Source: an uncultured Dehalococcoidia bacterium
GTDB taxonomy: Bacteria; Chloroflexota; Dehalococcoidia; Lucifugimonadales; GCA-2712585
NCBI GenBank assembly: GCA_958295715.1
Contig: OY282371.1
Location: forward strand, 2,093,697-2,157,696
Direction: 5' to 3'
Length of the DNA stretch: 64,000 bases
Positions 6,496 to 57,024 of the stretch are shown in pieces (the stretch's first letter is position 1; the number at the start of each line of letters is the position of its first letter). The translations under genes were made by a program, and so were the position numbers. Below the pieces are notes generated by a model. It did not search any database. It saw only the letters and a list, made by a program, of their open reading frames with translations, and had not been told where the DNA came from.

Positions 6496-9400
6496 ATGTT
6501 CGGCCAAGGAGCAGCAGCCCCCGGCGCAGGCGCGGGGGCAGGCGCAGGGCTATCGTCAGGGGTAGTCGGCACCCTGGTTCCCTTGGCGGCCGGCGTATCT
6601 ATCGCCGTGGCCGTAGTGGTCGGCGACATCGGCCAAAGCCCTCCGCAGGAACCGACCGTCGCCGCGGCTACTCCCACGGCCACGCCTGAGCCCACCCCTA
6701 CGCCTACACTAACGCCGACGCCGGGGCCTACCCCCACGGCCACGCCTGAACCCACGGCCACGCCACCGCCTACAGCCACGCCACCGGCCACGCCGGAACC
6801 TACCCTTGCGCCTACTCCCACGGCCACGCCCACGAACACGCCGGCGCCTACGGCCACGCCGCCTCCAGCGCGCGGGCCGCCGCCCACACTAGCGGCCATA
6901 TCCCCTCCCCCGTCAACATCAACGCCAACGCCGGCGCCTACGTCTACGCCTGCTCCACCGCCCGCGCCTACGTCTACCCCGGCGCCGGAGTCCACACCCG
7001 TTCCAACCCCGACGCCCGTTCCCACACCGGCTCCTACACCCGTTCCAACCCCGACGCCGACACCCATTCCAACCCCGACGCCCACACCCGTTCCGACACC
7101 GGCGCCTACACCCGTTCCGACCCCGGCGCCCACGCCCGTTCCGACCCCGGCGCCAACCCCGGTTCCCACACCGGCGCCTACGCCTGTTCCAACCCCGGCG
7201 CCTACTCCTGCTCCGACACCTGCGCCCACGCCTAGTCCGACGCCAGAGCCCCCAGAGACCAACGTGCCAGGCGCGCCTCAGAGCTTTGCCGCCGCCCGCG
7301 GCGACCGCCAGGCCACCCTCACTTGGTCAGCCGCCGCAAGCAACGGCGTGGCTATCACGAGGTACGAGTACCAGAAGGACTCAGACTCTTGGCAGAACGC
7401 CGGCGGCAGCTCAGCCAGAAGCCGCACCATTAACGGACTCACCAACGGGGTCGAGTACACCTTCAAGCTCCGGGCCGTCAACGCCGTTGGCGATGGCGCC
7501 GTGGCGTCAACCACCGTCACCCCGGCGACGACCCCCGGCGCGCCTCAGAGCTTCACGGCCACCCGCGGCCACCGCCAGGCCACCCTCACTTGGACCGCCG
7601 CCGCAAGCAACGGCGCCTCTATCACCAAGTACCAGTACCAGCAGGGTTCAGGCTCTTGGACGGACATATCCGGCGGCGGCTCAGCCACCAGCCACACCGT
7701 CACGGGCCTCACCAACGGGACCGCGTACACCTTCAAGCTGCGGGCCGTCAACGCCGTTGGCAACGGAGCCGAGACATCGGCGGCCACCGTCACCCCGGCG
7801 GCCGTTCCCGGCGCGCCTCAGAGTTTCACCGCCGCCGCAGGCAGCGCCCAGGCCACCCTCACTTGGACTGCGGCCGCAAGCAACGGCGCCGCTATCTCCA
7901 AGTACCAGTACCAGCAGGGTTCAGGCTCTTGGACGGACATCACTGGCGGCGGCTCAGCCACCAGCCACACCGTCACGGGCCTCACTAATGGGACTGCGTA
8001 CACCTTCAAGCTGCGGGCCGTCAACGCCGCGGGCAACGGAGCCGAGGCGTCGGCCACCGTCACCCCGGCGACGACCCCCGGCGCGCCTCAGAGCTTTGCC
8101 GCAGCTCCAGGCAACACCCAGGCCAGCCTCTCTTGGACGGCCCCCGCTAGCAACGGCGGCGGCGCTATCTCCAAGTACCAGTACCAGCAGGGTTCAGGCT
8201 CTTGGACGGACATATCTGGCGGCGGCGCAGCCACCAGCCACACCGTCACCGGCCTCACTAATGGGACTGCGTACGCCTTCAAGCTGCGCGCCGTCAACTC
8301 CGCCGGCAATGGAGCCGAGGCGTCAACCACCGTCACGCCGGCGGCCGTCCCCGGCGCGCCTGGGAGCTTCACCGCCACCGCAGGCAATACCCAGGCCACC
8401 CTCTCTTGGACTGCCTCCGCCAGCAACGGCGCCGCTATCTCCAAGTACCAGTACCAGCAGGGCTCAGGCTCTTGGACGGATATCACTGGCGGCGGCTCAG
8501 CCACCAGCCACACCGTCACGGGCCTCACCAACGGGACCGCGTACACCTTCAAGCTGCGGGCCGTCAACTCCGCCGGCAACGGCGCCGAGGCCTCGGCCAC
8601 CGTCACCCCGGCGGCCGTCCCTGGCGCGCCACAGAGCTTTGCCGCCGCCCGCGGCGACGGCCAGGCCAGCCTCTCTTGGACGGCTCCCGCCAGCAACGGC
8701 GGCTCCTCTATCTCCAAGTACCAGTACCAGCAGGGTTCAGGCTCTTGGACGGATATCACTGGCGGCGGCTCAGCCACCAGCCACACCGTCACGGGCCTCA
8801 CCAACGGGACCGCGTACACCTTCAAGCTCCGGGCCGTCAACTCCGCCGGCAACGGAGCCGAGGCGTCAACCACCGTCACCCCGGCGGCCGTCCCCGGCGC
8901 GCCTCAGAGCTTCGCCGCCGCCCGCGGCGACCGCCAGGCCACCCTCACTTGGTCAGCCGCCGCAAGCAACGGCGTGGCTATCACGAGGTACGAGTACCAG
9001 AAGGACTCAGACTCTTGGCAGAACGCCGGCGGTGGCTCAGCCAGAAGCCGCACCATTAACGGACTCACCAACGGGGTCGAGTACACCTTCAAGCTCCGGG
9101 CCGTCAACGCCGTTGGCGATGGCGCCGTGGCGTCAACCACCGTCACCCCGGCGACGACCCCCGGCGCGCCTCAGAGCTTCACGGCCACCCGCGGCCACCG
9201 CCAGGCCACCCTCACTTGGACAGCCGCCGCAAGCAACGGCGCCTCTATCACCAAGTACCAGTACCAGCAGGGCTCAGGCTCATGGACGGACGTATCCGGC
9301 GGCGGCTCAGCCACCAGCCACACCGTCACCGGCCTCACTAATGGCGCCACGTACACCTTCAAGTTGCGGGCCGTCAACGCCGTTGGCAACGGAGCCGAGA

Positions 9401-12400
9401 CATCGGCGGCCACCGTCACCCCGGCGGCCGTTCCAGGCGCCCCTGGGAGCTTCACCGCCACCTCAGGCAGCGCCCAAGCCACCCTCTCTTGGACGGCCGC
9501 CGCCAGCAACGGCGCCGCTATCTCCAAGTACCAGTACCAGCAGGGTTCAGGCTCTTGGACGGATATCACTGGCGGCGGCTCAGCCACCAGCCACACCGTC
9601 ACGGGCCTGACCAACGGGACCGCGTACACCTTCAAGCTGCGGGCCGTCAACTCCGCCGGCAATGGAGCCGAGGCGTCGGCCACCGTCACCCCGGCGACGA
9701 CCCCCGGCGCGCCTCAGAGCTTTGCCGCCGCCCCAAGCGACGGCCAGGCCAGCCTCTCTTGGACGGCCCCCGCCAGCAACGGCGGCGCCGCTATCTCCAA
9801 GTACCAGTACCAGCAGGGTTCAGGCTCTTGGACGGATATCAGTGGCGGCGGCTCAGCCACCAGCCACACCGTCACGGGCCTGACTAATGGCACCCAGTAC
9901 ACCTTCAAGCTGCGGGCCGTCAACTCCGCCGGCAATGGCGCCGAGGCGTCGACCACCGTCACCCCGGCGGCCGTCCCAGGCGCGCCTCAGAGCTTCACCG
10001 CCACCTCAGGCAACACCCAGGCCACCCTCTCCTGGACAGCCGCCGCCAGCAACGGCGCCGCTATCTCCAAGTACCAGTACCAGCAGGGCTCAGGCTCCTG
10101 GACGGATATCACTGGCGGCGGCTCAGCCACCAGCCACACCGTCACGGGCCTCACCAACGGGACCGCGTACACCTTCAAACTCCGGGCCGTCAACGCCGCC
10201 GGCAACGGCGCCGAGGCGTCAACCACCGTCACACCGGCGACCGTCCCTGGCGCGCCACAGAGCTTTGCCGCCGCCCGCGGCGACGGCCAGGCCACCCTCA
10301 CTTGGACGGCCCCCGCCAGCAACGGCGGCGCATCTATAACCAAGTACCAGTACCAGCAGGGTTCAGGCTCTTGGACGGATATCACTGGCGGCGGCTCAGC
10401 CACCAGCCACACCGTCACGGGCCTCACTAATGGCACCGCGTACACCTTCAAGCTGCGCGCCGTCAACTCCGCGGGCAACGGCGCCGAGGCCTCGGCCACC
10501 GTCACGCCGGCGGCTGTCCCCGGCGCGCCTCAGAGCTTTGCCGCCGCCCGCGGCGATGGCCAGGCCAGCCTCTCTTGGACGGCCCCCGCCAGCGCCGGCG
10601 GCGCATCTATCACCAAGTACCAGTACCAGCAGGGTTCAGGCTCTTGGACGGATATCACTGGCGGCGGATCTGCCACCAGCCACACCGTCACGGGCCTCAC
10701 CAACGGGACCGCGTACACCTTCAAGCTCCGGGCCGTCAACGCCGTCGGCGATGGCGCCGAGGCGACAACCACCGTCACGCCAAGGGGAGTCCCCGGCGCG
10801 CCTGGGAGCTTTGCCGCATCAGCAGGCGACGAACGGACCGGTCTCTCTTGGACCGCCGCCGCCAGCAACGGCGCCACTATCTCCAAATACCAGTACCAGC
10901 AGGACTCAGGCTCTTGGACGGATATCACTGGCGGCGGCTCAATCACTAGCGTCACCATCACGGGCCTGACCAACGGGACCCAGTACACCTTCAAGCTGCG
11001 GGCCGTCAACGCCGTCGGCGATGGCGCCGAGGCGTCAACCACCGTCACGCCAAGGGGAGCCCCCGGCGCGCCCGGGAGCTTCACCGCCGCCTCAGGGGAC
11101 GAACGGGCCGATCTCTCCTGGACCGCCGCCCCGAGCAACGGCGCATCTATCACCAAGTACCAGTACAAGCAGGGGGCAGGCTCCTGGACGGACATCTCCG
11201 GCGGCGGCTCAATCACCACCCATACCGTTAGGAACCTCACCAATGGGACCGCGTACACCTTCAGGCTCCGCGCCGTCAACTCCGCGGGCAATGGCGCCGA
11301 GGCCTCTGACACCGTCACGCCGTCGACGACCCCCGGCGCGCCGCAGAGCTTCACCGCCACCCGCGGCGACGAAGAGGCCGCCCTCTCTTGGACGGCCCCC
11401 GCCAGCAACGGCGGCGCCGCTATCTCCAAGTACCAGTACCAGCAGGGCTCAGGCGCGTGGACGGATATCACTGGCGGCGGCTCAGCCACCAGCGTCACCG
11501 TCACGGGCCTCACCAACGGGACCGCGTACACCTTCAAGCTGCGCGCCATCAACGTCGCGGGATTTGGACCCTCGGCCTCAGCCACCGTCACCCCGGCGGC
11601 CGTCCCAGGGCTCCCTGGAAGCTTCACGGCTACCCGCGGCGACACCCAGGCCACCCTCTCTTGGACCGCCGCCGCGAGCAACGGCGCGACTATCTCCAAG
11701 TACCAGTTCAAGCAGGACGCAGGGGCTTGGACAGACGTATCCGGCGGCTCCTCAGCCACCAGCCACACCGTAACGGGCCTCACCAATGGGACGGAGTACA
11801 CCTTCAAGGTAAGGGCCGTCAACAACGTCGGCAACGGCGCCGAGGCCACAGCCACCGTCACCCCAGCGACGACCCCCGGCGCGCCTCAGAGCTTCACCGC
11901 CGCCCGCGGCGACCGCCAGGCGACCCTCTCTTGGACCGCCGCCGCGAACAACGGCTCGGCCATCACCAAGTACCAGTTCCAGCAGGACTCAGGCTCTTGG
12001 ACGGACATTTCCGGCGGCGGCTCAGCCACCAGCCACACCGTCTCCAGCCTGACCAATGGGACGGAGTACACCTTCAAGCTCCGGGCCGTCAACGCCGTAG
12101 GCAGCGGAGCCGAGGCCTCAACCACCGTCACGCCGGCGACGACCCCCGGCGCCCCTCGGAGCTTCACCGCCACCGCAGGGGCCGGTCAGGCCGCCCTCTC
12201 CTGGACAGCCCCCTCTAGCAACGGCGGCGCGTCTATCACCAAGTACCAGTACCAGCAGGACTCAGGCTCTTGGACGGACATATCCGGCGGCGGCTCAGCC
12301 ACCAGCGCCACCGTCACGGGCCTCACCAACGGGACCCTGTACACCTTCAAGCTGCGGGCCGTCAACATCGCGGGCAATGGAGCCGCGACCTCTGACACCG

Positions 12401-14334
12401 TCACCCCGGTGGCGGCCCCGGACGCGCCTAGGAGCTTCACCGCCGCCCGCGGCGACCGCCAGGCTGAACTCTCTTGGACCGCCCCCGCGGACAACGGCTC
12501 GGCCATCACCAAGTACCAGTACCAGCAGGGTTCAGGCTCCTGGCAAGATATCTCCGACGCCTTGGCCACCAGCCACACCGTCACGGGCCTCACCAACGGG
12601 ACCGCGTACACCTTCAAGCTCCGGGCCGTCAACGCCATAGGCAACGGCGCCGAGGCATCAGCCACCGTCACCCCGTCGACGACCCCTGGCGCGCCTCAGA
12701 GCTTCACGGCCACCCGCGGCAACACCCAGGCGACCCTATCCTGGACTGCCCCCTCTAGCAACGGCGGCGCGTCTATCTCCAAGTACCAGTACCAGCAGGA
12801 CTCAGGCTCTTGGACGGACATATCGGGCGGCGGCTCGGCCGCCAGCCACACCGTCACGGGCCTAACCAACGGCACCCAGTACACCTTCAAGCTGCGGGCC
12901 GTCAACGTCGCGGGCAACGGCGCCGTTGCCTCTGACACCGTCACCCCGGCGGCCGTTCCGGGCGCCCCTGGGAGCTTCACGGCCACCCGCGGCGATCAGG
13001 AGGCAACCCTCTCTTGGACCGCCGCCGCGGGCAACGGCTCGGCCATCACCAATTACCAGTTCAAGCAGGACTCAGGCTCCTGGACGGACATCGCCGGCGG
13101 CGCCTCGACCACCAGCCACACCGTTGAAGATCTCACCAACGGGACGGAGTACACCTTCAAGCTCCGCGCCGTCAACGCCGTCGGCTATGGAACCGAGGCC
13201 ACAGACACCGTCACCCCAGCGACGGAGCCAGGCCCGCCTCGGAGCTTCACCGCCACCCGCGGCGACGGCCAGGCCACCCTCACTTGGACCGCCGCCAAGA
13301 ACAACGGCGCATCTATCACCAAGTACCAGTTCAAGCAGGACGCAGGGGCTTGGACGGATATCACTGGCGGAGGCTCGGCCACCAGCCACACCGTCACGGG
13401 CCTCACCAACGGGACTTCGTACACCTTCAAGGTGAGGGCCGTCAACGCTGTCGGCAACGGCGCCGAGGAATCAGCCACCGTCACCCCGGCGGCCGTTCCG
13501 GGCGCGCCTCAGAGCTTCACCGCCGCCCGAGGCAACACCCAGGCCACCCTCTCCTGGACTGCCCCCTCCAGCAACGGCGGCGCGGCTATCTCCAAGTACC
13601 AGTACCAGCAGGGCTCGGGTTCCTGGACGGACGTATCCGGCGGCGCCACCGCCACCACCGTCACCGTCACGAGCCTGACCAACGGGACCCTGTACACCTT
13701 CAGGCTGCGGGCCGTCAACGCCGCCGGCAACGGCGCCGTGGCCACAGCCACCGTCACCCCGGCGGCAATCCCTGGGGCGCCTCAGAGCTTCACCGCCGCC
13801 CCAGGCAACCTGAAGGCCGACCTCTCATGGACCGCCGCTCCGGACAACGGCCTATCCATCACCAAGTACCAGTACCAGCAGGACTCAGGTTCCTGGAAGG
13901 ACGTGCCAGACGGTGGCTCCGCGAGAAGCTTAACCATCCACAACCTCACCAACGGGACCTCGTACACCTTCAAACTGCGGGCCGTCAACTCCGATGGCAA
14001 TGGAGCCGAGGCCACAGCCACCGTCACCCCGGCTCAGCCCGCCCAAGGAAGCGTCCCGGCCCAACCCAATAATCTCTCGGCCACCCCGGGCGACGGCCAG
14101 GCCACCATCTCCTGGACAGCCGGCTCGGACCGCGGCTCCCCCATCACCAAGTACCGGTACTCCCTAGACGGGGCCGACTGGCACGACATCCCCGGCGGCG
14201 GCTCAGTCACTAGCTACGTCGTCACGGGCCTCACCAACGGCGTCGCGCAGAACATCTACGTGCACGCTGTGAATGCGTGGGGAACCGGCGGGTACCGGGT
14301 CATAAGCGTTACGCCCACGGCAGGCGGGTCATAA
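6496..14334 (+). CDS. Giant surface protein with 26 fibronectin type III domains
   Basis: A 2612-aa protein. Residues ~1-20 are Gly/Ala-rich, ~23-43 form one hydrophobic helix (signal anchor or uncleaved signal), ~50-256 are a Pro-Thr-rich rod of PTP-type repeats, and from residue 257 there are 26 FN3 domains of about 90 residues. Each runs from (V/T)PGAPQSF through [30 protein letters not shown] and YTFKLRAVN to VTPA. No catalytic, cell-wall-anchoring or adhesive head domain was seen at the C-terminus (ends PTAGGS). FN3 repeats in bacteria usually act as spacers in surface or secreted proteins, so an extracellular stalk or adhesin is likely. No Shine-Dalgarno precedes ATG 6496, consistent with coupling to the upstream gene. 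Repeats this uniform can be mis-assembled, so the domain count is provisional. Confidence 0.85.
7264..10515 (+). repeat. Two tandem 1626-bp higher-order repeat units (6 FN3 domains each)
   Basis: FN3 domains 1-6 (7264-8889) and 7-12 (8890-10515) correspond one by one. Domains 1 and 7 share the distinctive segments [12 protein letters not shown] and [11 protein letters not shown], 2 and 8 share TATRGHRQ, 3 and 9 share GSAQ, 4 and 10 share the [12 protein letters not shown] start, 5 and 11 share GNTQ, 6 and 12 share AAARGDGQ. Both units are exactly 1626 bp, indicating in-frame duplication of six domains. Confidence 0.85.
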
Positions 14335-19019: not shown

Positions 19020-20840
19020 GTGAAGATAGCGGTTTGCATAAAGCAGGTTCCCACCCTTTCCAAGATTGAGTTCGACTACGAAAGGAAGCGGATAATTCGC
19101 GACGGCGTGCCCTTGGAGATGAACGTCTTCGACCTCATTGCCCTGGGGCGGGCGGTGGAGATGAAGGAGGAGCTCGGCGCCGAGGTGACGGCCCTAACCA
19201 TGGGGCCTCCCCAGGCGCGGGACGTTCTGGCCCACGCCCTGGCCGTCGGCGCCGACCACGCCATGCTCATCAGCGACCCCGCCATGGCCGGCTCCGACAC
19301 CCTGGCCACCTCGCGAACCCTGGCCCTGGCCTTAGGGCAGCGGGGCTTCGACCTGATTTTGTGTGGAAGGAACAGCGCCGACGCCGAGACGGGACAGGTC
19401 GGCCCCGAACTGGCGGAACTTCTCGACATCCCCCACGTGAGCCGCGCCCGGAAGCTAGTCTACCACCCCGAGGCCAACAGCGTGGTGGTGGAGCGGGTCA
19501 CCGACGACGGGTACGAGACCCTGGAAGTGTCGCTGCCCGCCCTGGTGACGGCCACCGAGGGCCTCAGCGAGGAACGCTGGCCACGCCGCCGGGTCATAGC
19601 CGAGGCGCGGGAGCGGCCCGTGGAGGAGGTCAAGGCGTCAGACCTGTCGGACGACCCGTCGGTGTTCGGGGCCGCCGGCTCTCCGACGCGGGTCGCCGAC
19701 ATCCGGCTCCTAGAGCGCCGGCGTCTGGCAAGGGTTATCGAGGGGCTTGAGCCGTCGGAAGCGGCTACACTGGTGGCGGAAGGCATCCGGGGCGTGGCCG
19801 CCGCCAACGCCTCCCCTCCCACTGAACGGCGGTGGAGCAGGCATCCGCAAGGGCGGGATAAGGCCCTGTGGGTGGTGGCCGAACGGGCGGAGGGCGGCTT
19901 CCGGTGGGCAACCATGGAAAACTTGGGCAAGGCCCGGGAGCTGGCCGAGGAGTTGAAGGCAGAAGTGTCGGCGGTCCTGATGGATGAGGCCTCCCCGGAG
20001 GACGCTGCAACCCTGGCCTCCTACGGCGCCGACACTGTCCTGGCCCTGGAGGACGGCGGCGCGACCCATCCCACCAGCCCTCTCGCGGCTGCGGCCCTGG
20101 CCGAAGCCATAAAGACGCGGCGGCCTTACGCCGTGCTGTTCGCCTCCACCGCCAACGGCCGCGACCTGGCCTCCCGGACGGCGGCGCGGCTGTCCCTGGG
20201 CCTGACCGGTGACTGCGTGGACCTGGAGATAGACGAGGAGGGACGACTCGTACAGCTAAAGCCCGCCCTGGGGGGCAACGTGGTGGCCCCCATCCTGTCG
20301 GACACCCTGCCCTACATGACCACCATGAGGCCGGGCCTGCTGTCGCCCATCACCCGGGAGCCGGAAGCCGGGGCCGCGGTGGAGCGGTTCCACCTTCCCG
20401 CCGGAAAGGACCCCGTCAGGCTGCTGGCGAGCCGCCGCGAGGAGGACGTTAGGGGCGCAGAGTTGGAGCGGGCCAGGATAGTCCTGGGAGTGGGAAAGGG
20501 CATAGGCGGGCCTGAGCGCCTGGCTGAAATCCACCGGATGGCCGAGCGGTTGGGGGCCTCAGTGGCGGCCACCCGCAGCGTCACCGACGCCGGTTGGCTG
20601 CCCAAGCAGGCGCAGGTCGGCCTCACGGGGCGGGCCATAGCCCCCAGGGTGTACATAGCCGTTGGGATACGGGGCGCCTTCAATCACATGGTGGGCGTCC
20701 AAAAGGCGGGGGCCGTGGCCGCCATCAACACCAACGCCCGGCACCCCATATTTCAGGCCGCCGACTTCGGCATAGTGGGCGATTGGCAGGACTACCTGCC
20801 GCCCCTGATAGAGGCCCTGGCCGACGGCCCCGCCCTCTAA
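19020..20840 (+). CDS. Fused electron transfer flavoprotein, beta-alpha (EtfBA)
   Basis: A single 606-aa chain containing both ETF subunits. Residues ~1-255 are the EtfB half (MKIAVCIKQVP, DLIALGRAVEMKE, the AMP/FAD-side LILCGRNSADAETGQVGPEL, PALVTATEG). Residues ~285-606 are the EtfA half with ARIVLGVGKGIGGPE, QVGLTGRAIAPRVYIAVGIR and the C-terminal ADFGIVGDWQDYLP. ETF carries electrons from acyl-CoA and other dehydrogenases to the quinone pool. In the alpha loop, the usual SGAxQH reads RGAFNH, so the FAD environment may differ. GTG 19020 follows AGGAGAGAAGC. A separate etfB/etfA pair exists at 45.6-47.4 kb. Confidence 0.88.
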   Translation: MKIAVCIKQVPTLSKIEFDYERKRIIRDGVPLEMNVFDLIALGRAVEMKEELGAEVTALTMGPPQARDVLAHALAVGADHAMLISDPAMAGSDTLATSRTLALALGQRGFDLILCGRNSADAETGQVGPELAELLDIPHVSRARKLVYHPEANSVVVERVTDDGYETLEVSLPALVTATEGLSEERWPRRRVIAEARERPVEEVKASDLSDDPSVFGAAGSPTRVADIRLLERRRLARVIEGLEPSEAATLVAEGIRGVAAANASPPTERRWSRHPQGRDKALWVVAERAEGGFRWATMENLGKARELAEELKAEVSAVLMDEASPEDAATLASYGADTVLALEDGGATHPTSPLAAAALAEAIKTRRPYAVLFASTANGRDLASRTAARLSLGLTGDCVDLEIDEEGRLVQLKPALGGNVVAPILSDTLPYMTTMRPGLLSPITREPEAGAAVERFHLPAGKDPVRLLASRREEDVRGAELERARIVLGVGKGIGGPERLAEIHRMAERLGASVAATRSVTDAGWLPKQAQVGLTGRAIAPRVYIAVGIRGAFNHMVGVQKAGAVAAINTNARHPIFQAADFGIVGDWQDYLPPLIEALADGPAL

Positions 20841-20844
20841 CCTA

Positions 20845-21150
20845 CCGGCCCCGCTAGGACGCCAGGTGGGACTCTCCAGCTAGTCGTCCACGACGTCGGC
20901 TGTTCGGCTAACCCAACGGCCCCGCTAGGACGCCAGGTGGGACTCTCCAGCTAGTCGTCCACGACGTCGGCTGCTCGGCTAACCCACCGGCCTCGCTAGG
21001 ACGCCAAGTGGGCCTCTCCAGCTAGTCGTCCACTACGTCGGCTGTTCGGCTAACCCACCGGCTTCGCTAGGACGCCAGGTGGGCCTCTCCAGCTAGTCGT
21101 CCACTACGCCGGCTGTTCTGCTAACCCACCGGCCCCGCTAGGACGCCAGG
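20845..21150. repeat. 71-bp tandem repeat, four copies plus the native gene end
   Basis: CGCTAGGACGCCAGGTGG recurs at exactly 71-bp intervals (20852, 20923, 20994, 21065, 21136). The last copy is the true 3' end of the minus-strand ABM gene (codons YHLAS and stop); earlier copies repeat that tail plus a constant GTCGTCCACGACGTCGGC segment. Copies diverge at a few positions. It fills the gap between the convergent etfBA and ABM genes. Confidence 0.9.
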
Positions 21151-21461
21151 TGGTACGTCGCGATGTCGGAGGAGCGCACCTCGAAATGCTTAACCCAGTA
21201 CTCGCCGGCGTAAAGGTGGTCGGCGGCCCTGGCGTTCTCCTGCCGCTGGGGGCTCTTGTCGTAGTTCTCCACCTCCTCGTGGGTGTCCCAGTAGGTGATG
21301 GATATGCCCTCGTCCGGATTTTCAGTGCTGCGGAGGAGCTGGCGGCCGCTGAAGCCCGGCATGTGCACGCCGAGGGCCTGGATGTTCTTGTTGTAGTGCT
21401 CCTCGTACTCGCTCCACCTCCCCGGCTTAATCTTGCCCCAGAAAATTCTTACGTACATCAT
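21138..21461 (-). CDS. Dimeric alpha/beta-barrel (ABM-like) protein
   Basis: A 107-aa protein resembling antibiotic-biosynthesis-monooxygenase/EthD-like ferredoxin folds: YVRIFWGKIKPGRWSEYEEH gives the first strand and helix, MPGFSGRQLLRS the second strand, and ISITYWDTHEEVENYDKSP the typical third strand plus helix. Such proteins are homodimers acting as oxygenases, haem binders or with unknown function; no activity can be assigned. Tandem ATGs at 21461 and 21458 follow AAGGAGAG. It stands alone on the minus strand, its end embedded in the 71-bp repeat. Confidence 0.7.
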   Translation of the reverse strand: MMYVRIFWGKIKPGRWSEYEEHYNKNIQALGVHMPGFSGRQLLRSTENPDEGISITYWDTHEEVENYDKSPQRQENARAADHLYAGEYWVKHFEVRSSDIATYHLAS

Positions 21462-30750: not shown

Positions 30751-31443
30751 GTGAACCCCCACCGAGCGGCGGCCATCACCGCGGCCCTGTGCCTTTCGGC
30801 GGCGCTGTTCATGGCGGCCTGCGCCTCTTCATCTTCGCCTCCCCCGGACAGTTCGGACCGGGCGGTCCTGACCGCCTTATACAACTCCACCGGCGGGCCA
30901 TCCTGGGAAAACAACGACAACTGGCTGAGCAATGCCCCGCTGAACCAGTGGCGCGGCGTGACCACCGACGAGAACTGGCGGGTGACTTCCCTGGACCTTG
31001 CGTCCAACGGCCTGACCGGTCAGTTGCCGCCGGAACTCGGCGGCCTGTCCAAGCTGACGGGCCTGCTCCTCAACGGCAACCGGCTGACCGGGCCTATCCC
31101 GCCTGAATTCGGCAACATGGCCAGCCTGGAACTCCTGCTCCTCTACAGTAACGGGCTGACCGGGCCTATCCCGCCTGAGTTGGGCAATCTGTCCAACCTG
31201 GAATGGCTGTCCCTCTACGGGAACCAATTGAGTGGCCCGATACCGCCGGAACTCGGCCGCCTGTCCGACATGATTGACATAGAGCTCCGACGGAACCAAC
31301 TGACCGGAACCATACCGCCGGGGTTGGGCAGCCTGCCACGCCTCGTGCGGCTGTCCGTCTACGAGAACCAACTGACCGGCTGCGTGCCCCAGGACCTGCG
31401 GGGTCGGGTGGACTTTGAGCGGCTGGGGCTGCCCTTCTGCTGA
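30751..31443 (+). CDS. Plant-type leucine-rich-repeat lipoprotein 1
   Basis: A 230-aa lipoprotein: lipobox MAAC (Cys 24), a Ser/Pro linker, an N-terminal cap (ALYNSTGGPSWENNDNWL, then GVTTDENWRVTSLDL) and about five LRRs of the LxxNxLTGPIPPELGNLS plant-specific type. It ends in LTGCVPQDLRG and LGLPFC, a C-terminal cap with two cysteines. Such LRR proteins bind partners through a curved solenoid; the ligand is unknown. Start is GTG 30751, aligned exactly with the starts of the three following paralogues (GTG-AAC-CCC-CAC). Outer-surface location is inferred from the lipobox. Confidence 0.85.
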   Translation: MNPHRAAAITAALCLSAALFMAACASSSSPPPDSSDRAVLTALYNSTGGPSWENNDNWLSNAPLNQWRGVTTDENWRVTSLDLASNGLTGQLPPELGGLSKLTGLLLNGNRLTGPIPPEFGNMASLELLLLYSNGLTGPIPPELGNLSNLEWLSLYGNQLSGPIPPELGRLSDMIDIELRRNQLTGTIPPGLGSLPRLVRLSVYENQLTGCVPQDLRGRVDFERLGLPFC

Positions 31444-31500
31444 GGAGTCGCGGCTCCACGGCTCTAACTGCCTTGCGCCCCCCGGATTGCAGGCCTTGAA

Positions 31501-32736
31501 ATGACCCCCCACCGGGCGGCGGCCCTTGCCGTTGCGACGTGCCTTGCCTTGGCCCTGTTCGTGGCGTCCTGCTCCTCATCACCTCCGTCTCCCCCGGACA
31601 GTCCGGAGGACCGCGCGGCCCTGACCGCCTTGTACAACTCCGCCGGCGGGTCGGCCTGGGACTGGAATTATAACTGGCTGAGGGGGGATTTCTGGGGCAG
31701 GAACGACAAGTGGCTGAGCGATGCCCCGCTGGACGAGTGGCGCGGCGTGATCACCGACGACGCGGGGCGGGTGATAGTCTTAGACCTTGGGTCCACCAAC
31801 CTGAACGGACGGTTGCCGCCGGAAATCGGCAGCCTGTCCAGCCTTTCGTCGCTATACCTTGGCGGGAACCAACTGACCGGGCCTATCCCACCGGAGTTGA
31901 GCAAACTATCCAACCTAAGGACTCTCGGACTCAGCTATAACCAGCTAAGCGGCCCCATTCCACCGGAGTTGGGCCAGTCGCCCAACCTATGGACTCTCCA
32001 ACTCAGCCATAACCAGCTAAGCGGCCCCATTCCACCGGAGTTGGGACAGATGCCCAACCTATGGACTCTCCAACTCAGCCATAACCAGCTAAGCGGCTCA
32101 ATTCCGCTCGAATTAGGCGACCTCTCCAACCTGGAGGCGCTAGACCTCTCCGGAAACCAGCTAACCGGGCAGATTCCGCCGGAGTTGAGCACGCTATCCA
32201 ACCTATGGGATCTCCAACTCAGCCACAATCAGCTAAGCGGCCCTATCCCGCCGGAGTTGGCCAGCCTGACCAACCTACAGGCGCTGGCCCTCGCCGGGAA
32301 CCGCCTGACCGGGCAGATTCCAACTGAGTTGGGCGGCCTCTCCAACCTGTTGGAAATGAACCTTAGCGCGAACCAATTTACCGGGCCTATCCCTCCGCAA
32401 CTAGGCAACCTGCCCAGCCTATGGGACCTCCAACTCAGCCATAACCAGCTAAGCGGCTCAATTCCGCCCGAATTAAGCGACTTGTCGAACCTGTGGAACC
32501 TCCAACTCAGCCACAACCAGCTAAGCGGCACTATCCCACCCGAATTAGGCGGCTTGTCCAACCTGGAGGCGCTAGACCTCTCCGGAAACCAACTGACCGG
32601 GCCTATCCCGCAAGAGTTGGGCAACCTATCCGAGCTGAACGCACTGATGTTAGGCGGGAACCAACTGACCGGGTGCGTGCCCCAGGGTCTACGGAGTAGA
32701 ATAAACCCGGATGAGGTGGGTATGCCCTTCTGCTGA
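31501..32736 (+). CDS. Plant-type leucine-rich-repeat lipoprotein 2
   Basis: A 411-aa paralogue of the preceding gene with lipobox VASC, the same N-terminal cap but with a 12-residue insertion (NYNWLRGDFWGR region), about 13 LRRs and the conserved C-terminal LTGCVPQGLRSRINPDEV...GMPFC cap. Many repeats are nearly identical (LQLSHNQLSGPIPPELG), indicating recent internal expansion. Start is ATG 31501, at the position where paralogues use GTG or TTG. The upstream spacer matches those of the other three genes, so gene and leader were duplicated together. Confidence 0.85.
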   Translation: MTPHRAAALAVATCLALALFVASCSSSPPSPPDSPEDRAALTALYNSAGGSAWDWNYNWLRGDFWGRNDKWLSDAPLDEWRGVITDDAGRVIVLDLGSTNLNGRLPPEIGSLSSLSSLYLGGNQLTGPIPPELSKLSNLRTLGLSYNQLSGPIPPELGQSPNLWTLQLSHNQLSGPIPPELGQMPNLWTLQLSHNQLSGSIPLELGDLSNLEALDLSGNQLTGQIPPELSTLSNLWDLQLSHNQLSGPIPPELASLTNLQALALAGNRLTGQIPTELGGLSNLLEMNLSANQFTGPIPPQLGNLPSLWDLQLSHNQLSGSIPPELSDLSNLWNLQLSHNQLSGTIPPELGGLSNLEALDLSGNQLTGPIPQELGNLSELNALMLGGNQLTGCVPQGLRSRINPDEVGMPFC

Positions 32737-32795
32737 GGGGCCGCGCGGCTCCCCGGTCCCAACCGCCTTATGCCACTTCGATTGGAGGCTTTGAA

Positions 32796-34310
32796 TTGAA
32801 CCCTCACCGTGCGGCGGCCCTTGCCGCGTTGATGTGCCTTGCGATAGCCCTCTTGATGGCGTCCTGCTCCTCATCACCCTCGCCACAGTCGGACAGTTCA
32901 GACCGGGCAACCCAGACTACTCCTCCATCAGACAATTCAGACCGGGCAACCCAGACTACTCCTCCATCAGACAATTCAGACCGGGCGGTCCTGACCGCCT
33001 TATACCACTCCACCGGCGGGGCATCCTGGGATAGGAACGATAACTGGTTGAGCGAGGCTCCACTGGACCAGTGGCGCGGAGTGGATGTGGACGACAAGGG
33101 ACGGGTGATTTATCTGAACCTTCCCTCCAACGGCCTGACCGGACGGCTGCCACCGGAGTTGGGTAGATTGTCCAATCTAGACACCCTAGACCTCGCCGGG
33201 AACCAACTGACCGGGCCTATCCCACCGGAGTTGGGCGGCCTGTCTAACCTTGAGACATTGGACCTCAACTACAATCTGTTGACCGGGCCTATTCCGCCCG
33301 AGTTGGGCAAACTATCCAACCTTGAAGAGTTGCTCCTCAACAAGAACCAACTGACCGGGTGTGTGCCACAGAGCCTACAGGAAAATGTAGACTCGGAACA
33401 GATAGGAATGCCCTTCTGCCCACCTCAGATATCGGACCGGGAGGCCCTGACCGCCCTATACCGCTCCACTGGCGGGGCATCCTGGGATGACAACGACAAC
33501 TGGTTGAGTGAGGCCCCGCTGGACCAGTGGCACGGAGTGGACGTTGACTCCGGCGGACGGGTGATTGCCTTAGACCTTGCGAACAACGGCCTGACCGGGG
33601 AGTTACCGCCAGAAATCGGCAGCCTGTCCAACTTGAGGTGGCTGGTCCTACCCGGGAACCAACTGACCGGGCCTATTCCACCGCAACTGATCAGCATGTC
33701 GAACCTGGAGACGCTGCGCCTTAGCGATAACCAACTGACCGGGCCTATTTCACCGGAGTTGGGCGGCCTCTTCAACTTGGAGACGCTGCACCTTAGCGAT
33801 AACCAACTGACCGGACCTATTCCGCCCGAGTTGGGTGGCCTCTCCAATCTAGAGACGATGTACCTCGCCAGTAACCAACTGGCCGGACCTATCCCACCAG
33901 AGTTGAGCAAACTATCCAACCTGGAGACGCTGAGCCTTGACGATAACAGACTGACCGGACCTATTCCACCGGAGTTAGGCGACCTGTCTAACCTGGAGAC
34001 GCTGAGCCTCGGCTGGAACCAACTGACCGGGCCCATCTTGTCGGAGTTGGGCCGACTGCCTAACCTTGAGTGGCTGTACCTAGGCTGGAACCAACTGACC
34101 GGGCCTATCCCGCCGGAGTTGGGCAACCTCTCTAACCTGCTTAATCTGCACCTCGCCGATAACCAACTGACCGGGCCTATCCCGCCTGAGTTGGGCAACC
34201 TTTCCAACCTGTGGGAGTTGCACCTCAACGAGAATCAACTGACCGGGTGCGTGCCCCAGGGTCTACGGAGTAGAATAAACCCTAATGCGGTAGGGATGCC
34301 CTTCTGCTGA
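32796..34310 (+). CDS. Plant-type leucine-rich-repeat lipoprotein 3, double-headed
   Basis: A 504-aa lipoprotein (lipobox MASC) with two complete cap-LRR-cap modules in one chain. Module one has about three to four LRRs and ends in LTGCVPQSLQENVDSEQIG and PFC. Module two restarts with SDREALTALYRSTGGASW and has about ten LRRs before the final LTGCVPQGLRS/GMPFC cap. Near the lipid anchor, SDRATQTTPPSDN is repeated in tandem as an extended linker. It looks like a fusion of two ancestral copies by loss of the first stop. Start TTG 32796, GGAGG seven bases upstream. Confidence 0.85.
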   Translation: MNPHRAAALAALMCLAIALLMASCSSSPSPQSDSSDRATQTTPPSDNSDRATQTTPPSDNSDRAVLTALYHSTGGASWDRNDNWLSEAPLDQWRGVDVDDKGRVIYLNLPSNGLTGRLPPELGRLSNLDTLDLAGNQLTGPIPPELGGLSNLETLDLNYNLLTGPIPPELGKLSNLEELLLNKNQLTGCVPQSLQENVDSEQIGMPFCPPQISDREALTALYRSTGGASWDDNDNWLSEAPLDQWHGVDVDSGGRVIALDLANNGLTGELPPEIGSLSNLRWLVLPGNQLTGPIPPQLISMSNLETLRLSDNQLTGPISPELGGLFNLETLHLSDNQLTGPIPPELGGLSNLETMYLASNQLAGPIPPELSKLSNLETLSLDDNRLTGPIPPELGDLSNLETLSLGWNQLTGPILSELGRLPNLEWLYLGWNQLTGPIPPELGNLSNLLNLHLADNQLTGPIPPELGNLSNLWELHLNENQLTGCVPQGLRSRINPNAVGMPFC

Positions 34311-34368
34311 GGGGCCGCGCGGTCCCCGGCCCTAACCGCCTTATGCCACTTCGATTGGAGGCTTTGAA

Positions 34369-35052
34369 TTGAACCCTCACCGGGCGGCGGCCATTGCCGC
34401 TGCGTTGTGCCTTGCGGTAGCACTGTTCATGGCGTCCTGCTCCTCTTCATCCCCGCCTCACCCTACGGACCTAGCAGCCCTGACCGCCTTATACAACTCC
34501 ACCGGCGGGGCAACCTGGGACAGGAACGACAACTGGCTGAGCGAGGCCCCGCTAGACGAATGGCACGGAGTGACCACTGACGACTTCGGACGGGTGACTT
34601 CCCTAAGGCTTCCAGATAACGGCCTGAGGGGACGGTTGCCGCCAGAACTCGGCAGCCTGTCCAACCTAGAAGTCCTATCCCTTTTCGGGAACCAATTGAC
34701 CGGGCCTATCCCGCTGGAGTTGGGCAGATTGTCCAACCTAGAAGTTCTATCCCTCACCGGGAACCAATTGACTGGGCCGATTTCTCCGGGGTTGGGCAAC
34801 CTGTCTGACCTGTGGCAGTTGCTCCTCAGCTATAATCAGCTAACTGGCCCAATCCCGCCAGAAATCGGCAGATTGTCCAACCTGCGGGCTCTCGGACTCA
34901 GCTATAATCAGCTAACTGGCCCAATTCCACCGGAACTGGGCAACCTCCCTATCAAATCGCTGACGCTAGGCGGGAACCAGTTGACAGGGTGCGTGCCACA
35001 GAGCCTGCGATATGGGGTGAACCATGCTGGAGTAGGGATGCCCTTCTGCTGA
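34369..35052 (+). CDS. Plant-type leucine-rich-repeat lipoprotein 4
   Basis: A 227-aa paralogue: lipobox MASC, cap (ALYNSTGGATWDRNDNWL, GVTTDDFGRVTSL), about five LRRs and the C-terminal LTGCVPQSLRYG/GMPFC cap. Start TTG 34369 behind GGAGG with the same spacing as gene 3. The spacer from the previous stop (TATGCCACTTCGATTGGAGG) is practically identical to that before gene 3. It ends the cluster, converging on the GMC oxidoreductase gene 22 bp away. Confidence 0.85.
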   Translation: MNPHRAAAIAAALCLAVALFMASCSSSSPPHPTDLAALTALYNSTGGATWDRNDNWLSEAPLDEWHGVTTDDFGRVTSLRLPDNGLRGRLPPELGSLSNLEVLSLFGNQLTGPIPLELGRLSNLEVLSLTGNQLTGPISPGLGNLSDLWQLLLSYNQLTGPIPPEIGRLSNLRALGLSYNQLTGPIPPELGNLPIKSLTLGGNQLTGCVPQSLRYGVNHAGVGMPFC

Positions 35053-51574: not shown

Positions 51575-52357
51575 ATGAACGCCGGGGAGCGGCTGGCCGC
51601 GGACCTCCTGCGCGCCCGGAGACACGGCGGCCTGATTCCGCGCTCGGCAGCCAAGGGTTTGGACTCCGTAACGGCGGCCTACGCCATTCAGCGAATCCAG
51701 GCGTCCTTGGAGTCCCTGCCCCGCGCGGGCTGGAAGGTTGGGGCCACCAGCCGGGAGCCGCAGAAGCTCTTGGGAACCGACGAGCCGGCCACGGCGCCGA
51801 TGCTCCGGCGCGACTGCTCCCAGTCCCCCGCGTCCGTGGCCATCTTCGAGGGGCAGAGGGCCAGCGTTGAGGGGGAGTTCGCCTTCCGCTTTGCCCGCGC
51901 CCTCCCGCCCAGGCCCGGCGCCTATGAACTTGACGAGGTGCTAGACGCCGTTGAAGTCCTGGTCCCGGCCATCGAAATCGTGGGGTGCCGGTTCGAGGGC
52001 GGCTACGACGGCCTGGGAGCCGTCAGGCTGGTGGCCGACGCCACGGCCCACACCGCCTTTGTAGAGGGGCCACGGAACGCCGGGTGGCGGGATATCGACC
52101 TTCCATCCCATCCCGTGCGGCTCTTCAAGAACGGGCGGTTGGCGGGTGAGGGCAGCGGCGCCAAGGCCCTGGACGGCCCCCTATCGGTGCTGCTGTGGAC
52201 GGCCAACCACCTGTCGCGCCTGGGCGAGGCCATAGAGGCGGGGGAGGTTGTGACCACCGGCACCTGCACGGGCATAACGCCCGTGGCCCCCGGCGACGCG
52301 GTGTCCGCCGACTTCGGCTCCTTGGGCCGGGTCGAACTGCGCCTGACCGCGGGCTAG
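51575..52357 (+). CDS. MhpD-like 2-keto-4-pentenoate hydratase family protein
   Basis: A 260-aa protein of the hydratase/decarboxylase branch of the FAH superfamily. Motifs: AYAIQRIQASLESLPRAGWKVGAT, the metal-binding VEGEFAFRFARAL (Glu pair), VPAIEIVGCRF and TTGTCTGITPVAPGD near the C-terminus, where the active-site region lies. Relatives add water to 2-hydroxypenta-2,4-dienoates in aromatic meta-cleavage or decarboxylate 4-oxalocrotonate. No other meta-cleavage genes are nearby, so the substrate is open. ATG 51575. Confidence 0.85.
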   Translation: MNAGERLAADLLRARRHGGLIPRSAAKGLDSVTAAYAIQRIQASLESLPRAGWKVGATSREPQKLLGTDEPATAPMLRRDCSQSPASVAIFEGQRASVEGEFAFRFARALPPRPGAYELDEVLDAVEVLVPAIEIVGCRFEGGYDGLGAVRLVADATAHTAFVEGPRNAGWRDIDLPSHPVRLFKNGRLAGEGSGAKALDGPLSVLLWTANHLSRLGEAIEAGEVVTTGTCTGITPVAPGDAVSADFGSLGRVELRLTAG

Positions 52358-52385
52358 GGCGGACCTACCGTTATACGAACGCACA

Positions 52386-52394
52386 TGCTATAAT
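52386..52394 (+). promoter_or_regulatory. Extended -10 promoter element
   Basis: TGCTATAAT (TGn plus consensus TATAAT) 28 bp before the ATG at 52423; no good -35, as expected for an extended -10 promoter. Confidence 0.6.
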
Positions 52395-52422
52395 CCTAGT
52401 AGACTTATCCACGGGATTGAGG

Positions 52423-53394
52423 ATGAATTCAGATACCATCGCCGCAGTAACTACAGCCTTGGACAACGCCATCGCAAAAGTAGCGGAAGAGCAGTTCGAT
52501 GGGCTTGGCAAAGAAATAACCGATCAGCAGACTGCCGAAAGAATCGTTTGCGCGCTCCGTTCGCTTGCAGGTCTGCAAGGAGGGATAATGCCTGAATACG
52601 ATGAGTGGGTTTCTCTTTTCTATTCACTCTGGTACCAGCCGACACAGATTAACTTGGCATATACCCTTGTCCTGCAAATACCAGAGGACAAGAACCCTCT
52701 CCTAACCGGCAATGACGATCTTCATCTTATTGATTTTGCCTGTGGAGCGTTGGCAATGAAATTCGGGCTGGCGTTAGCGGCGGCGGACATATGGCAGAAG
52801 CATTCCTTCTTTCCTAGAATTACTGTTGTGTCAAAAGACGAAAGCGTGTCTATGAAAAGTATCGGAGATAAGATTTGGAGACAATTCGTGAACGGGCTAG
52901 AGAAGAACCCTAAGCTCCATAATCTGCAAAGGGTATGCCGTAAGATGCTAGTCAACTCTCCCGCTGATTGTCCAACAACACGCTGGCTGACTGCTCTTCA
53001 CGTTGCTTACAGCAAAAATAACAAGGCCGTCAAAAACGCTCTTGATTGTATAGTGAAGATAGAGAAACCTGATGTAGTGTTGATTACGTCACATCCGGGA
53101 AGTGTTTCATATGCTTTCTCCCCTAACGCCAGTGGGTCAAATGAATATACCTGCAACGCAGGCGTCCTTTCCGACGAAACGGGCGAACCTCTTCAGTTGC
53201 ACGGAGAGTTTGAGGTCACCAGCGCCTTCAGGCAAAACCTATATGACACCAAAATTCGTCGCGGACATGATCTTTCACCTCTACTTGATGACTCCGATGA
53301 TGATTCGTTTGCGCGGAAATACCTGACAGCACACTCAACGAGTTGGACCACACCTTGGTTTAAGGCGAACTACTATATCTATACCAAGCGTTAA
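52423..53394 (+). CDS. AT-richer gene of unknown function paired with a radical SAM gene
   Basis: A 323-aa soluble protein with no clear family match. LHLIDFACGALAMKFGLALA after a helical N-terminus resembles motif I of Rossmann methyltransferases (D-x-x-C/G-x-G), and DVVLITSHPGSVSYAF could be a later strand, so a divergent methyltransferase-like fold is possible but unproven. Its base composition and codon use (many AAT, AAA, TAT) differ strongly from the GC-rich genes upstream, indicating a different origin. Start ATG 52423 follows a GAGG; a longer open frame back to 52195 overlaps the hydratase gene and is rejected. It ends 5 bp before the SPL-type gene, so the pair is likely functional together. 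Confidence 0.6.
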   Translation: MNSDTIAAVTTALDNAIAKVAEEQFDGLGKEITDQQTAERIVCALRSLAGLQGGIMPEYDEWVSLFYSLWYQPTQINLAYTLVLQIPEDKNPLLTGNDDLHLIDFACGALAMKFGLALAAADIWQKHSFFPRITVVSKDESVSMKSIGDKIWRQFVNGLEKNPKLHNLQRVCRKMLVNSPADCPTTRWLTALHVAYSKNNKAVKNALDCIVKIEKPDVVLITSHPGSVSYAFSPNASGSNEYTCNAGVLSDETGEPLQLHGEFEVTSAFRQNLYDTKIRRGHDLSPLLDDSDDDSFARKYLTAHSTSWTTPWFKANYYIYTKR

Positions 53395-54364: not shown

Positions 54365-56956
54365 TCAGGAGCCTAAGCTCCCAAAGATGAAGCGGCCAAA
54401 CTGGATGATTCCGTAAATTACCCCTCCCAATACTAACGCTAATATAACCAGCATCACAATAATGCCGAAAATATCTGAGCCTTTGAATTTCGCCGTAGCG
54501 CGTCGGTGAACGTGAGCGCGAATCACAGTCAGAAACACATCGCCAAACTGCTCCAACTTCACCTCGCCGACGCCGTGTATGCGAGACAGGCTGTCGCGGC
54601 TTTGGGGAACCCGGTAGGCCATCTGCTGGAGGGTATCGTCGCCAAACACCATGTGGGGGGCCACGCCCCTCTCAGAAGCTATCCGGCTCCGCAGCCGACG
54701 CAGAACTCCGAAAAGCTCCCGGTCATATTCTAAGCCGTCGCTATCGAGGCTTAGGGCCGCCGCTTCCGCCCGCGCCACATCCTCAACCGACTCTCCCTTT
54801 TGGGGCAGGGGCTTGGTCCTGTCGTAGGTGGGGCCTTGGGGTTTCGCCGTAGCGACTCGGCGGCGGCGGGCAAGGATGGCACGCTCGCTCAAGCCGAGTT
54901 TATGAGCGCGAATCTCCGTCAGAAACACCTCGCCAAATTCCTCCAACTCCACCTCACCAACGCCGTCTATGCGGGACAGGCTGTCGCGGTTTAAGGGAAC
55001 CCAGTAGGCCATCTGACGGAGAGTCTTGTTACTAAACACCATGTAGGGGGGCACACCTCTCTTAGAAGCTATCCGGCTCCGCAGCCGACGCAGAATCTCA
55101 AACAACTCCCGGTCATATTCTAAGTCATCGCTATAGGGACTTGGGGCCGCCGCTCCTACCTCCTCCACCTTGCCGCCGCGCTTCTTCGCGACCTGTTTTA
55201 CGCCTCGTTCGGGGCTTGGGACCGCCGTTCCCGCCCACCTTTTTCTCCATAGGAACAGCTTTGTCCTTTTACTAAGGAATTCATATCCGTCGGCCGTTAC
55301 GCCAATGGCGCCAAGGGACACCGTGTTATTCCGGTTCTTATTGTAGAGAAGACCTTCAGCAATAAGGAGTTCCGCGATTTCCTTTAGCTCGTCGCGCGTG
55401 AAGTCGTTGACGATGCCGTAGACGCTAAGCTTGTCGTGTTCATATTCCCTTATCCGCTCGGTCTTCGCGCCCAGAAGCACACTGCTGACGTAACCTATCC
55501 AGAATCTCTCACCTGTGCGCACTACCGCAGACACAAATTTTAGGGCTATTTCCGTCGCGTCGAACTCATTCCTGGTGGCGAGGCACACATCGCAGCCCTG
55601 GCAATTTCCGCTTGGCCAGTCTTCAGCGAAATAGTTGAGCAGATATTCCCTTCGGCAGGACTCCAACTCGCTATACTTTATAACCTGGTCCAGCCTCTCC
55701 TGGGACCTCCTCCGTTCCTCCTTGTCCCTGATCCGGTCTATGAAATACTGCGGCTTTCTCTTGTCTTCACGAGAGTAAAAGAGGACGCATTCGCTGGGGA
55801 GACCGTCCCGCCCGGCCCTACCCGTCTCCTGGTAGTACCCCTCCACAGAATTGGGCAGGTCGTAGTGGACTATGAGGCGTATGTTGGGCTTGTCTACCCC
55901 CATACCGAAGGCGATGGTGGCCGTTACGATTTTAACCTCGTCGCGCATGAACCGTTCTTGAGTCTCGCTGCGCGTTAACCACTCTTGAGCTTCGTCTCTG
56001 GTCTTCTCATCGAGACCGGCGTGGTAGGGCAAGGCAGAAAATCCCTCTCTACGCAGATATCTCGCCAGTTCTTCGGTGCTATCGCGCCTAGAACAGTAGA
56101 TGATGACCGATTCGTCTTGATATTTGCGAAGGAGGCCCAGCAATTCCTCTAATGGCTCTTGAGTTTTATAAAGCACAGTGTGTCTAATTGGACGCCCGCG
56201 ATGCCGATGGACTATTTCGCTCTGATTAGGCCTCTTATACAGCACCGTGTACCTGAGGTTGGGGCGGTTGAAGCTGGCCACAAACCTCTGGGGCTTATCC
56301 AGGCGCAGCTGCTGGACTATGTCTTCCCGCACCCTCTCCGTTGCGGTGGCAGTGAAGGCCGCAATGGGAACCTCTGGCGTTAAATGGGCGTGATGTTCGT
56401 GGGTGTCGCACTCATGAATATCGCGCTCATATTCGGGATGGTCGCCGTGATGCTCGTGCTCATCGCATTCGTGGATGTCGTGTTTGAGCCGCAAGTTGCC
56501 CAGGTTCCGATATTCAGGACGGAATTCGTGCCCCCACATGGAGATGCAGTGGGCCTCGTCCACGGCGACGAGGCTGACCTCCAGCCGGTCAAGAAAGTCC
56601 TGAAAGCCCGGAACGGCCAAGCGCTCCGGCGCAGCGTACAGGATCTTGATTTCACCTCTGAGAGCCCTTCTTTGGGTCTTCTCAATCTCGGCGCGTGTCA
56701 GGGAACTGTTTATGTAGGCCGCCTCAACGCCCTTGGTCTTCAGGTCATCCACCTGGTCCTTCATTAAGGCGATGAGGGGCGACACCACCAGGGTAACCCC
56801 GTCCAGCATGAGGGCGGGCAGCTGGTAGCAGAGGGACTTGCCGCTGCCCGTGGGCATGAGGGCCAAGACGTCCCGGCCCTCCATGACGCTGGAGATTATC
56901 TCCTCTTGGAGGGGCTTGAACTCGTAGCCAAAGTGTTTTTTGAGGAGGTCGCGCAC
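54365..56956 (-). CDS. RecQ-type DNA helicase with His/Cys insertion, two HRDC domains and a membrane anchor
   Basis: An 863-aa protein. The helicase core is standard RecQ: MPTGSGKSLCYQLPA (Walker A), DEAHCISMWGHEFRPEY, AFTATAT, YHAGLDEKTR, IAFGMGVDKPNIRLIVH and ETGRAGRDGLPS. The zinc domain has CRREYLL plus CQGCDVC, followed by a winged helix. Additions: a 34-residue His/Cys/Asp/Glu-rich insertion at about residues 159-192 (HDIHECDEHEHHGDH, then RDIHECDTHEHHAHL) inside helicase domain 1; a duplicated TVLYK strand (YTVLYKR, HTVLYKT) after it; two HRDC domains (each YDRELF-LRRLRSRIAS); and a C-terminal hydrophobic helix (IIVMLVILALVLGGVIYGII) that should anchor it in the membrane. GTG 56956 is the preferred start because a TATAAT sits six bases upstream (leaderless). 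Confidence 0.88.
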   Translation of the reverse strand: MRDLLKKHFGYEFKPLQEEIISSVMEGRDVLALMPTGSGKSLCYQLPALMLDGVTLVVSPLIALMKDQVDDLKTKGVEAAYINSSLTRAEIEKTQRRALRGEIKILYAAPERLAVPGFQDFLDRLEVSLVAVDEAHCISMWGHEFRPEYRNLGNLRLKHDIHECDEHEHHGDHPEYERDIHECDTHEHHAHLTPEVPIAAFTATATERVREDIVQQLRLDKPQRFVASFNRPNLRYTVLYKRPNQSEIVHRHRGRPIRHTVLYKTQEPLEELLGLLRKYQDESVIIYCSRRDSTEELARYLRREGFSALPYHAGLDEKTRDEAQEWLTRSETQERFMRDEVKIVTATIAFGMGVDKPNIRLIVHYDLPNSVEGYYQETGRAGRDGLPSECVLFYSREDKRKPQYFIDRIRDKEERRRSQERLDQVIKYSELESCRREYLLNYFAEDWPSGNCQGCDVCLATRNEFDATEIALKFVSAVVRTGERFWIGYVSSVLLGAKTERIREYEHDKLSVYGIVNDFTRDELKEIAELLIAEGLLYNKNRNNTVSLGAIGVTADGYEFLSKRTKLFLWRKRWAGTAVPSPERGVKQVAKKRGGKVEEVGAAAPSPYSDDLEYDRELFEILRRLRSRIASKRGVPPYMVFSNKTLRQMAYWVPLNRDSLSRIDGVGEVELEEFGEVFLTEIRAHKLGLSERAILARRRRVATAKPQGPTYDRTKPLPQKGESVEDVARAEAAALSLDSDGLEYDRELFGVLRRLRSRIASERGVAPHMVFGDDTLQQMAYRVPQSRDSLSRIHGVGEVKLEQFGDVFLTVIRAHVHRRATAKFKGSDIFGIIVMLVILALVLGGVIYGIIQFGRFIFGSLGS

Positions 56957-56968: not shown

Positions 56969-57024
56969 CCCGCCCACGCGTTGACGCGCCCCTCATGTTG
57001 GGGGCTGCGGGTCGGCCGGTGCGC

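Follow-up and report, generated by a model that had tools for sequence, protein, structure and literature searches.

A RecQ helicase with an embedded module related to histidine-rich small proteins in an uncultured Dehalococcoidia bacterium

A recQ gene was analysed in a 64,000-nucleotide stretch of contig OY282371.1 from an uncultured Dehalococcoidia bacterium (hereafter the window). Judged from its sequence, the product is a RecQ helicase with every catalytic motif, and it carries between motif II (the DEAH box) and motif III a His/Cys/acidic insert composed of two HECDxHEHH units and a spacer, here termed the HEC module. Such paired units also make up a family of small stand-alone proteins, which is apparently undescribed, as judged from Pfam, NCBIfam and a collection of open-access papers. 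We consider it likely that the protein is an ordinary RecQ bearing a metal-chelating loop derived from a HEC module.

Results

Identity and domain structure of the window RecQ

The open reading frame scored 712.8 bits against the NCBIfam equivalog TIGR01389 (cut-off 640.2), and the Pfam domains DEAD, Helicase_C, RecQ_Zn_bind, RQC and HRDC (twice) were detected. The SF2 motifs GSGKS, DEAH, CISMWGHEFRPEY, TATAT and QETGRAGR were intact and conserved, as was the aromatic-rich loop, and the zinc-site cysteines 434, 452, 455 and 458 were retained in the alignment. The top-ranked structures in Foldseek were the RecQ catalytic cores 4tmu, aligned there at 40% identity, and 1oyw. The helicase core was modelled by AlphaFold with pLDDT mostly of 85-96. 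An upstream GTG at 56977 provides an alternative start, which would give 870 residues, and the frame is open down to 54365. The features of the gene are listed in Table 1.

Table 1. Features of the recQ gene in the window
Feature	Residues	Position	Strand	Basis or remark
recQ gene	863 aa from GTG 56956	54365..56956	(-)	TIGR01389, Pfam domains, Foldseek
Motif II, DEAH	133-136	56549..56560	(-)	intact; invariant across the 36-sequence alignment
HEC module, HDIHECDEHEHHGDHPEYERDIHECDTHEHHAH	159-191	56384..56482	(-)	alignment, module profile, HMM
Second insert (24 aa), PNQSEIVHRHRGRPIRHTVLYKTQ	about 243-266	56159..56230	(-)	missing in all 36 relatives
9-aa insert	near 320	55976..56002	(-)	missing in all 36 relatives
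HRDC copy 1	about 616-686	54899..55111	(-)	Pfam, AlphaFold
HRDC copy 2	about 746-812	54521..54721	(-)	Pfam; comparison with copy 1
C-terminal hydrophobic helix	829-853	54398..54472	(-)	Kyte-Doolittle, AlphaFold, domain scan

Compared to bacterial RecQ (TIGR01389; E. coli and Cronobacter, PDB 1oyw and 4tmu), the window RecQ was alike in its motifs and in the order helicase-Zn-RQC-HRDC, but differed in the HEC module, two more loop inserts, a second HRDC and the C-terminal hydrophobic helix. From its Chloroflexota relatives it differed in that HTH_40 was gone.

A preliminary description of this DNA had proposed a coupling of the helicase to DNA uptake or phage. This proposal found no support, since neither competence nor phage genes could be recognised directly around recQ in the window and HEC was unconfirmed in viral contigs. 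Regulatory or uptake genes were likewise not recognised close to recQ, and the only neighbours conserved between the window and relatives were distant amidohydrolases, at three loci. Elsewhere in the window, an open reading frame of about 375 codons (52270-53394) lies directly upstream of a radical SAM gene, with an atypically low GC3 of 0.50 and no confident Pfam match. Repeats were found in three further regions: 25 tandem copies of a 273-bp unit at 7270-14033 (82% matches), which is probably coding because its length is divisible by three; a 71-bp direct repeat at 20837-21153 (4.5 copies, 93% alike); and several blocks of 72-bp leucine-rich-repeat-like repeats at 31061-34805.

The HEC insert in the motif II-III loop

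Each of 36 same-order RecQs aligned had a loop between motif II and motif III that was 34 residues shorter than that of the window RecQ. All 36 lacked the HEC insert, as did the RecQs of viral contigs and the RecQ-like proteins of loci L034-L038; the RecQ-HEC fusion was seen in one genome only. The two inserted units noted previously at this position were thus borne out by the 36-sequence alignment and by the module profile. Against a profile of 22 HEC modules the insert scored +62, while 20,000 shuffled versions of the insert reached -5 at best, and the runner-up across all six reading frames of the window, an overlapping stretch, reached -8. A score so far above the shuffles and the rest of the window ruled out an effect of composition. 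The insert aligned without gaps to HEC modules, spacer length included, with up to 26 of 33 residues identical, and was matched by an HMM of the stand-alone HEC family in a whole-genome search (E 4.5e-8). Its spacer, GDHPEYERD, is without the two His of the usual HEC spacer, GDEPGHVHD.

The two units of the insert differed at 6 synonymous and 2 non-synonymous codons, and this synonymous divergence argues against a recent local duplication as well as against the sequencing duplication that had been named as a possible source. The closest DNA match to the insert agreed with it at 79 of 99 bases. An assembly error is unlikely, given that the insert is in-frame, diverged and without a near-identical donor in the genome. 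A different reading took the insert for a membrane-protein segment in reverse complement (MGVMFVGVALMNIALIFGMVAVMLVLIAF, hydrophobic on the opposite strand). It was rejected as a by-product of the codons, because across HEC loci it is the HEC frame that has the start codons, the Shine-Dalgarno sites and the conserved residues. AlphaFold gave pLDDT below 50 for residues 159-186, and the insert is predicted to be a disordered loop; the metal sensing suggested earlier was not supported.

Other inserts, duplications and the C-terminal helix

Several features had been overlooked in the preliminary description, namely the 24-residue insert, the 9-residue tandem duplication, the doubled HRDC and the loss of HTH_40. 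The 24-residue insert ends in HTVLYK, an imperfect copy of the immediately preceding YTVLYK; its GC3 was low (0.35), and residues 245-265 had pLDDT below 50. Copying of this insert from elsewhere in the genome was rejected, as no other copy was found. The 9-residue insert was an imperfect tandem copy, TRDEAQEWL (319-327) being followed by TRSETQERF (328-336). The two HRDC copies were identical at 59 of 78 residues and 195 of 234 nucleotides, and a doubled HRDC was also present in one of ten relatives scanned. Among other RecQ relatives, those of L115 and L118 had a Sigma-70 region 4 domain besides HRDC and HTH_40, and the viral-contig RecQ-like helicases of L169 and L170 were split at motif II (DEAH|C) by apparent inteins with the ends HN|C and AN|C.

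At the C-terminus the Kyte-Doolittle mean was 3.15 over 19 residues, compared with at most 1.25 in the C-termini of relatives, and residues 830-860 formed one helix in the AlphaFold model, which confirmed the hydrophobic helix reported before. HTH_40 was found in 10 of 10 relatives scanned but was missing in the window RecQ, where the hydrophobic helix takes its place. A comparable tail was found in none of the 36 same-order RecQs; a co-occurrence of insertion and anchor in homologues was accordingly not seen, 0 of 36 having either. An Arg/Lys-rich flank lies on the N-terminal side of the helix. From its hydrophobicity and predicted helical structure, the C-terminal stretch is a probable membrane anchor. 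An anchor common to another protein of the genome was also sought, but the only hit, part of another open reading frame, was weak (E 0.08).

A family of stand-alone HEC proteins

A total of 43 distinct small HEC proteins were collected, with a length of 42-161 residues (most 66-136) and tandem HxHDxHECDxHEHH units. Their composition was 34% His, 31% Asp plus Glu and 6% Cys, with a His:Cys ratio of about 6:1. The number of units was 2, 4, 6, 8 or 10 in 40 of the 43, which indicates that HEC units naturally come as pairs, and RecQ carries just one such pair. A Shine-Dalgarno sequence was present at 41 of 43 HEC genes compared with 9% of random sites, and codon differences between HEC modules were 2032 synonymous versus 1586 non-synonymous, although unconstrained codons would favour non-synonymous changes. 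The ribosome-binding sites, the paired units and the synonymous excess together argue that these are real proteins.

When six RecQ peptides, including HECDEHEH of the insert, were used to scan 84,980 species genomes, 26 loci with tandem HEC frames were obtained, all in records of Chloroflexi/Chloroflexota, Dehalococcoidia or SAR202 metagenome-assembled genomes. Of 249 other genomes in the same order, 31 had a HEC protein, and none was found in 300 Chloroflexota genomes drawn across the phylum. The family (loci L039-L059, L061, L062, L064-L081 and L173-L185) was restricted to one Chloroflexota order in the searches made. None was confirmed in viral contigs or plasmids, where plasmid matches were possibly masked by the BLAST low-complexity filter. 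Pfam gave no match for HEC proteins, NCBIfam gave one weak, chance-level match to an unrelated family (E 0.54), and among the titles listed from a collection of open-access papers nothing relevant appeared on SAR202 metallothionein or histidine-rich Chloroflexi RecQ. In 42 regions upstream of HEC genes no convincing palindrome was found as a shared operator (at most 3 of 42, compared with 2 in shuffles).

Linkage to CDF exporters and a second embedding

The commonest neighbour of HEC was a CDF cation exporter (PF01545). A CDF gene was located within about 1 kb of the stand-alone HEC in 17 of the 18 same-order relatives having one; the exception was G084, with a short HEC frame of 44 residues and no CDF found in that genome. 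For the loci of the wider scan, a CDF was present within up to 4 kb on each side in 19 of 26 and none in 7. Two CDFs were scanned, and the NCBIfam equivalog nearest to them was that of the zinc transporter ZitB, with scores below the cut-off. Some HEC loci also had Fur-family or Zn/Mn ABC genes nearby. These observations suggest that the HEC family probably binds metal and is linked to the export of zinc; outside RecQ it looks like a buffer or chaperone rather than a sensor.

The CDF of genome G067 (L034), an unrelated protein, also has the HEC pair embedded, inside its own His-rich N-terminus. Since the pair is embedded there as well as in RecQ, it has the look of a portable module. In three genomes of one genus, G067, G081 and G092 (L034-L036), HEC, CDF and recQ lie in this order on one strand; this was the sole joint occurrence seen and may be chance. 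An origin of the insert by recombination between neighbours in that order was rejected, as the window RecQ did not group in the tree with those RecQs.

In the genome of the window (96.6% complete) no CDF was found, by a search positive in 14 of 14 control genomes. A stand-alone HEC was not found there either, and the sole HEC copy is inside recQ. The same-genus genome G002 has a stand-alone HEC adjoining a CDF, plus an insert-free RecQ.

History of the window RecQ

In the tree, the window RecQ was placed apart from that of G002 and grouped with RecQs of families f30 and f6, on a long branch (0.85). The GC3 of recQ was 0.68, compared with 0.83-0.91 in four neighbour genes, and other nearby genes were equally low. 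Horizontal acquisition and fast drift would both fit this tree position and base composition. The long branch, unusual inserts and lower GC3 fit relaxed constraint as well as they fit a new function.

Discussion

Bacterial metallothioneins and His-rich metal storage peptides such as SmtA and Hpn are small and rich in metal ligands. HEC proteins are likewise small and ligand-rich, but they have no Pfam match, a His:Cys ratio of about 6:1 and a strictly repeated acid-rich unit. The RecQ insert shares the paired HECDxHEHH units and the spacer length of the stand-alone proteins; the latter are encoded by a separate gene, mostly next to a CDF, whereas the insert is one embedded pair in a genome in which no CDF was found. 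In one CDF transporter, that of G067, the HEC pair lies within the His-rich N-terminal region; such transporters of the ZitB/ZnT type, with cytosolic loops rich in His, are membrane proteins of an unrelated fold.

As the insert is absent from all relatives, we propose that a fragment of a HEC gene entered recQ in-frame through illegitimate recombination. The His, Cys and acidic side chains of the loop would chelate a divalent ion, Zn(II) or a similar one, as the composition of the loop, its homology to HEC proteins and the CDF linkage of their genes suggest. Since the loop is predicted to be disordered without metal, it would most likely be an appendage that chelates metal and is tolerated or of slight use, not a switch; it could serve local buffering or zinc supply to the four-Cys site of RecQ. 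Against this reading stand the lack of the same insertion in every homologue examined, the spacer without its two His and the 7 of 26 loci of the wider scan with no CDF. The C-terminal helix, replacing the lost HTH_40, may tether the enzyme to the cytoplasmic membrane, and the Arg/Lys-rich flank preceding it suggests that the helicase would stay cytosolic.

The insert could instead be a neutral or slightly harmful passenger, without a cellular metal function, in a decaying or fast-drifting recQ. This is a serious though less probable reading, compatible with the metal chemistry, because a loop can bind metal and still be useless. Three inserts, a doubled HRDC, a swapped C-terminus and a long branch in one gene speak for it, as does an insert kept by no homologue; yet all 863 codons are open, with helicase motifs and zinc cysteines all intact, and the units differ mainly by synonymous changes, although that constraint may predate the insertion. 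Convergence, by which a local His-rich codon repeat grown through slippage would merely resemble HEC, could draw on the further short internal duplications of the same gene. It is extremely improbable, however, because the gap-free match also takes in non-His positions and the length of the spacer, synonymous divergence between the two units is too great for recent slippage, and the confirmed HEC-type matches among the 84,980 species all came from Chloroflexota records.

Functional readings that go beyond a chelating appendage are also doubtful. In a metal-gated, membrane-tethered RecQ, zinc on the loop would alter ATPase or unwinding and couple the helicase to metal status. The insert does sit in the motor domain between motifs II and III, and its HEC relatives are encoded next to zinc pumps, but a long disordered loop conserved in no relative, a neighbourhood without recognised regulatory or uptake genes and the buffer- or chaperone-like character of the HEC family make such gating very unlikely. 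We know of no metal-responsive RecQ, and one gated by this loop, if true, would be the first. We hold it quite unlikely that the HEC pair is a portable metal-binding cassette moving among stand-alone proteins, CDF and RecQ, and that the membrane-anchored RecQ of this exporter-less organism responds to or stores zinc.

With this RecQ, nature has in effect carried out a domain-insertion experiment on a loop in the motor domain of a well-studied helicase, one that is readily testable in vitro. The HEC family is arguably of greater interest than the RecQ that led to it: it is small and strongly conserved in an uncultured Chloroflexota order, and its repeat pair lies inside two unrelated proteins.
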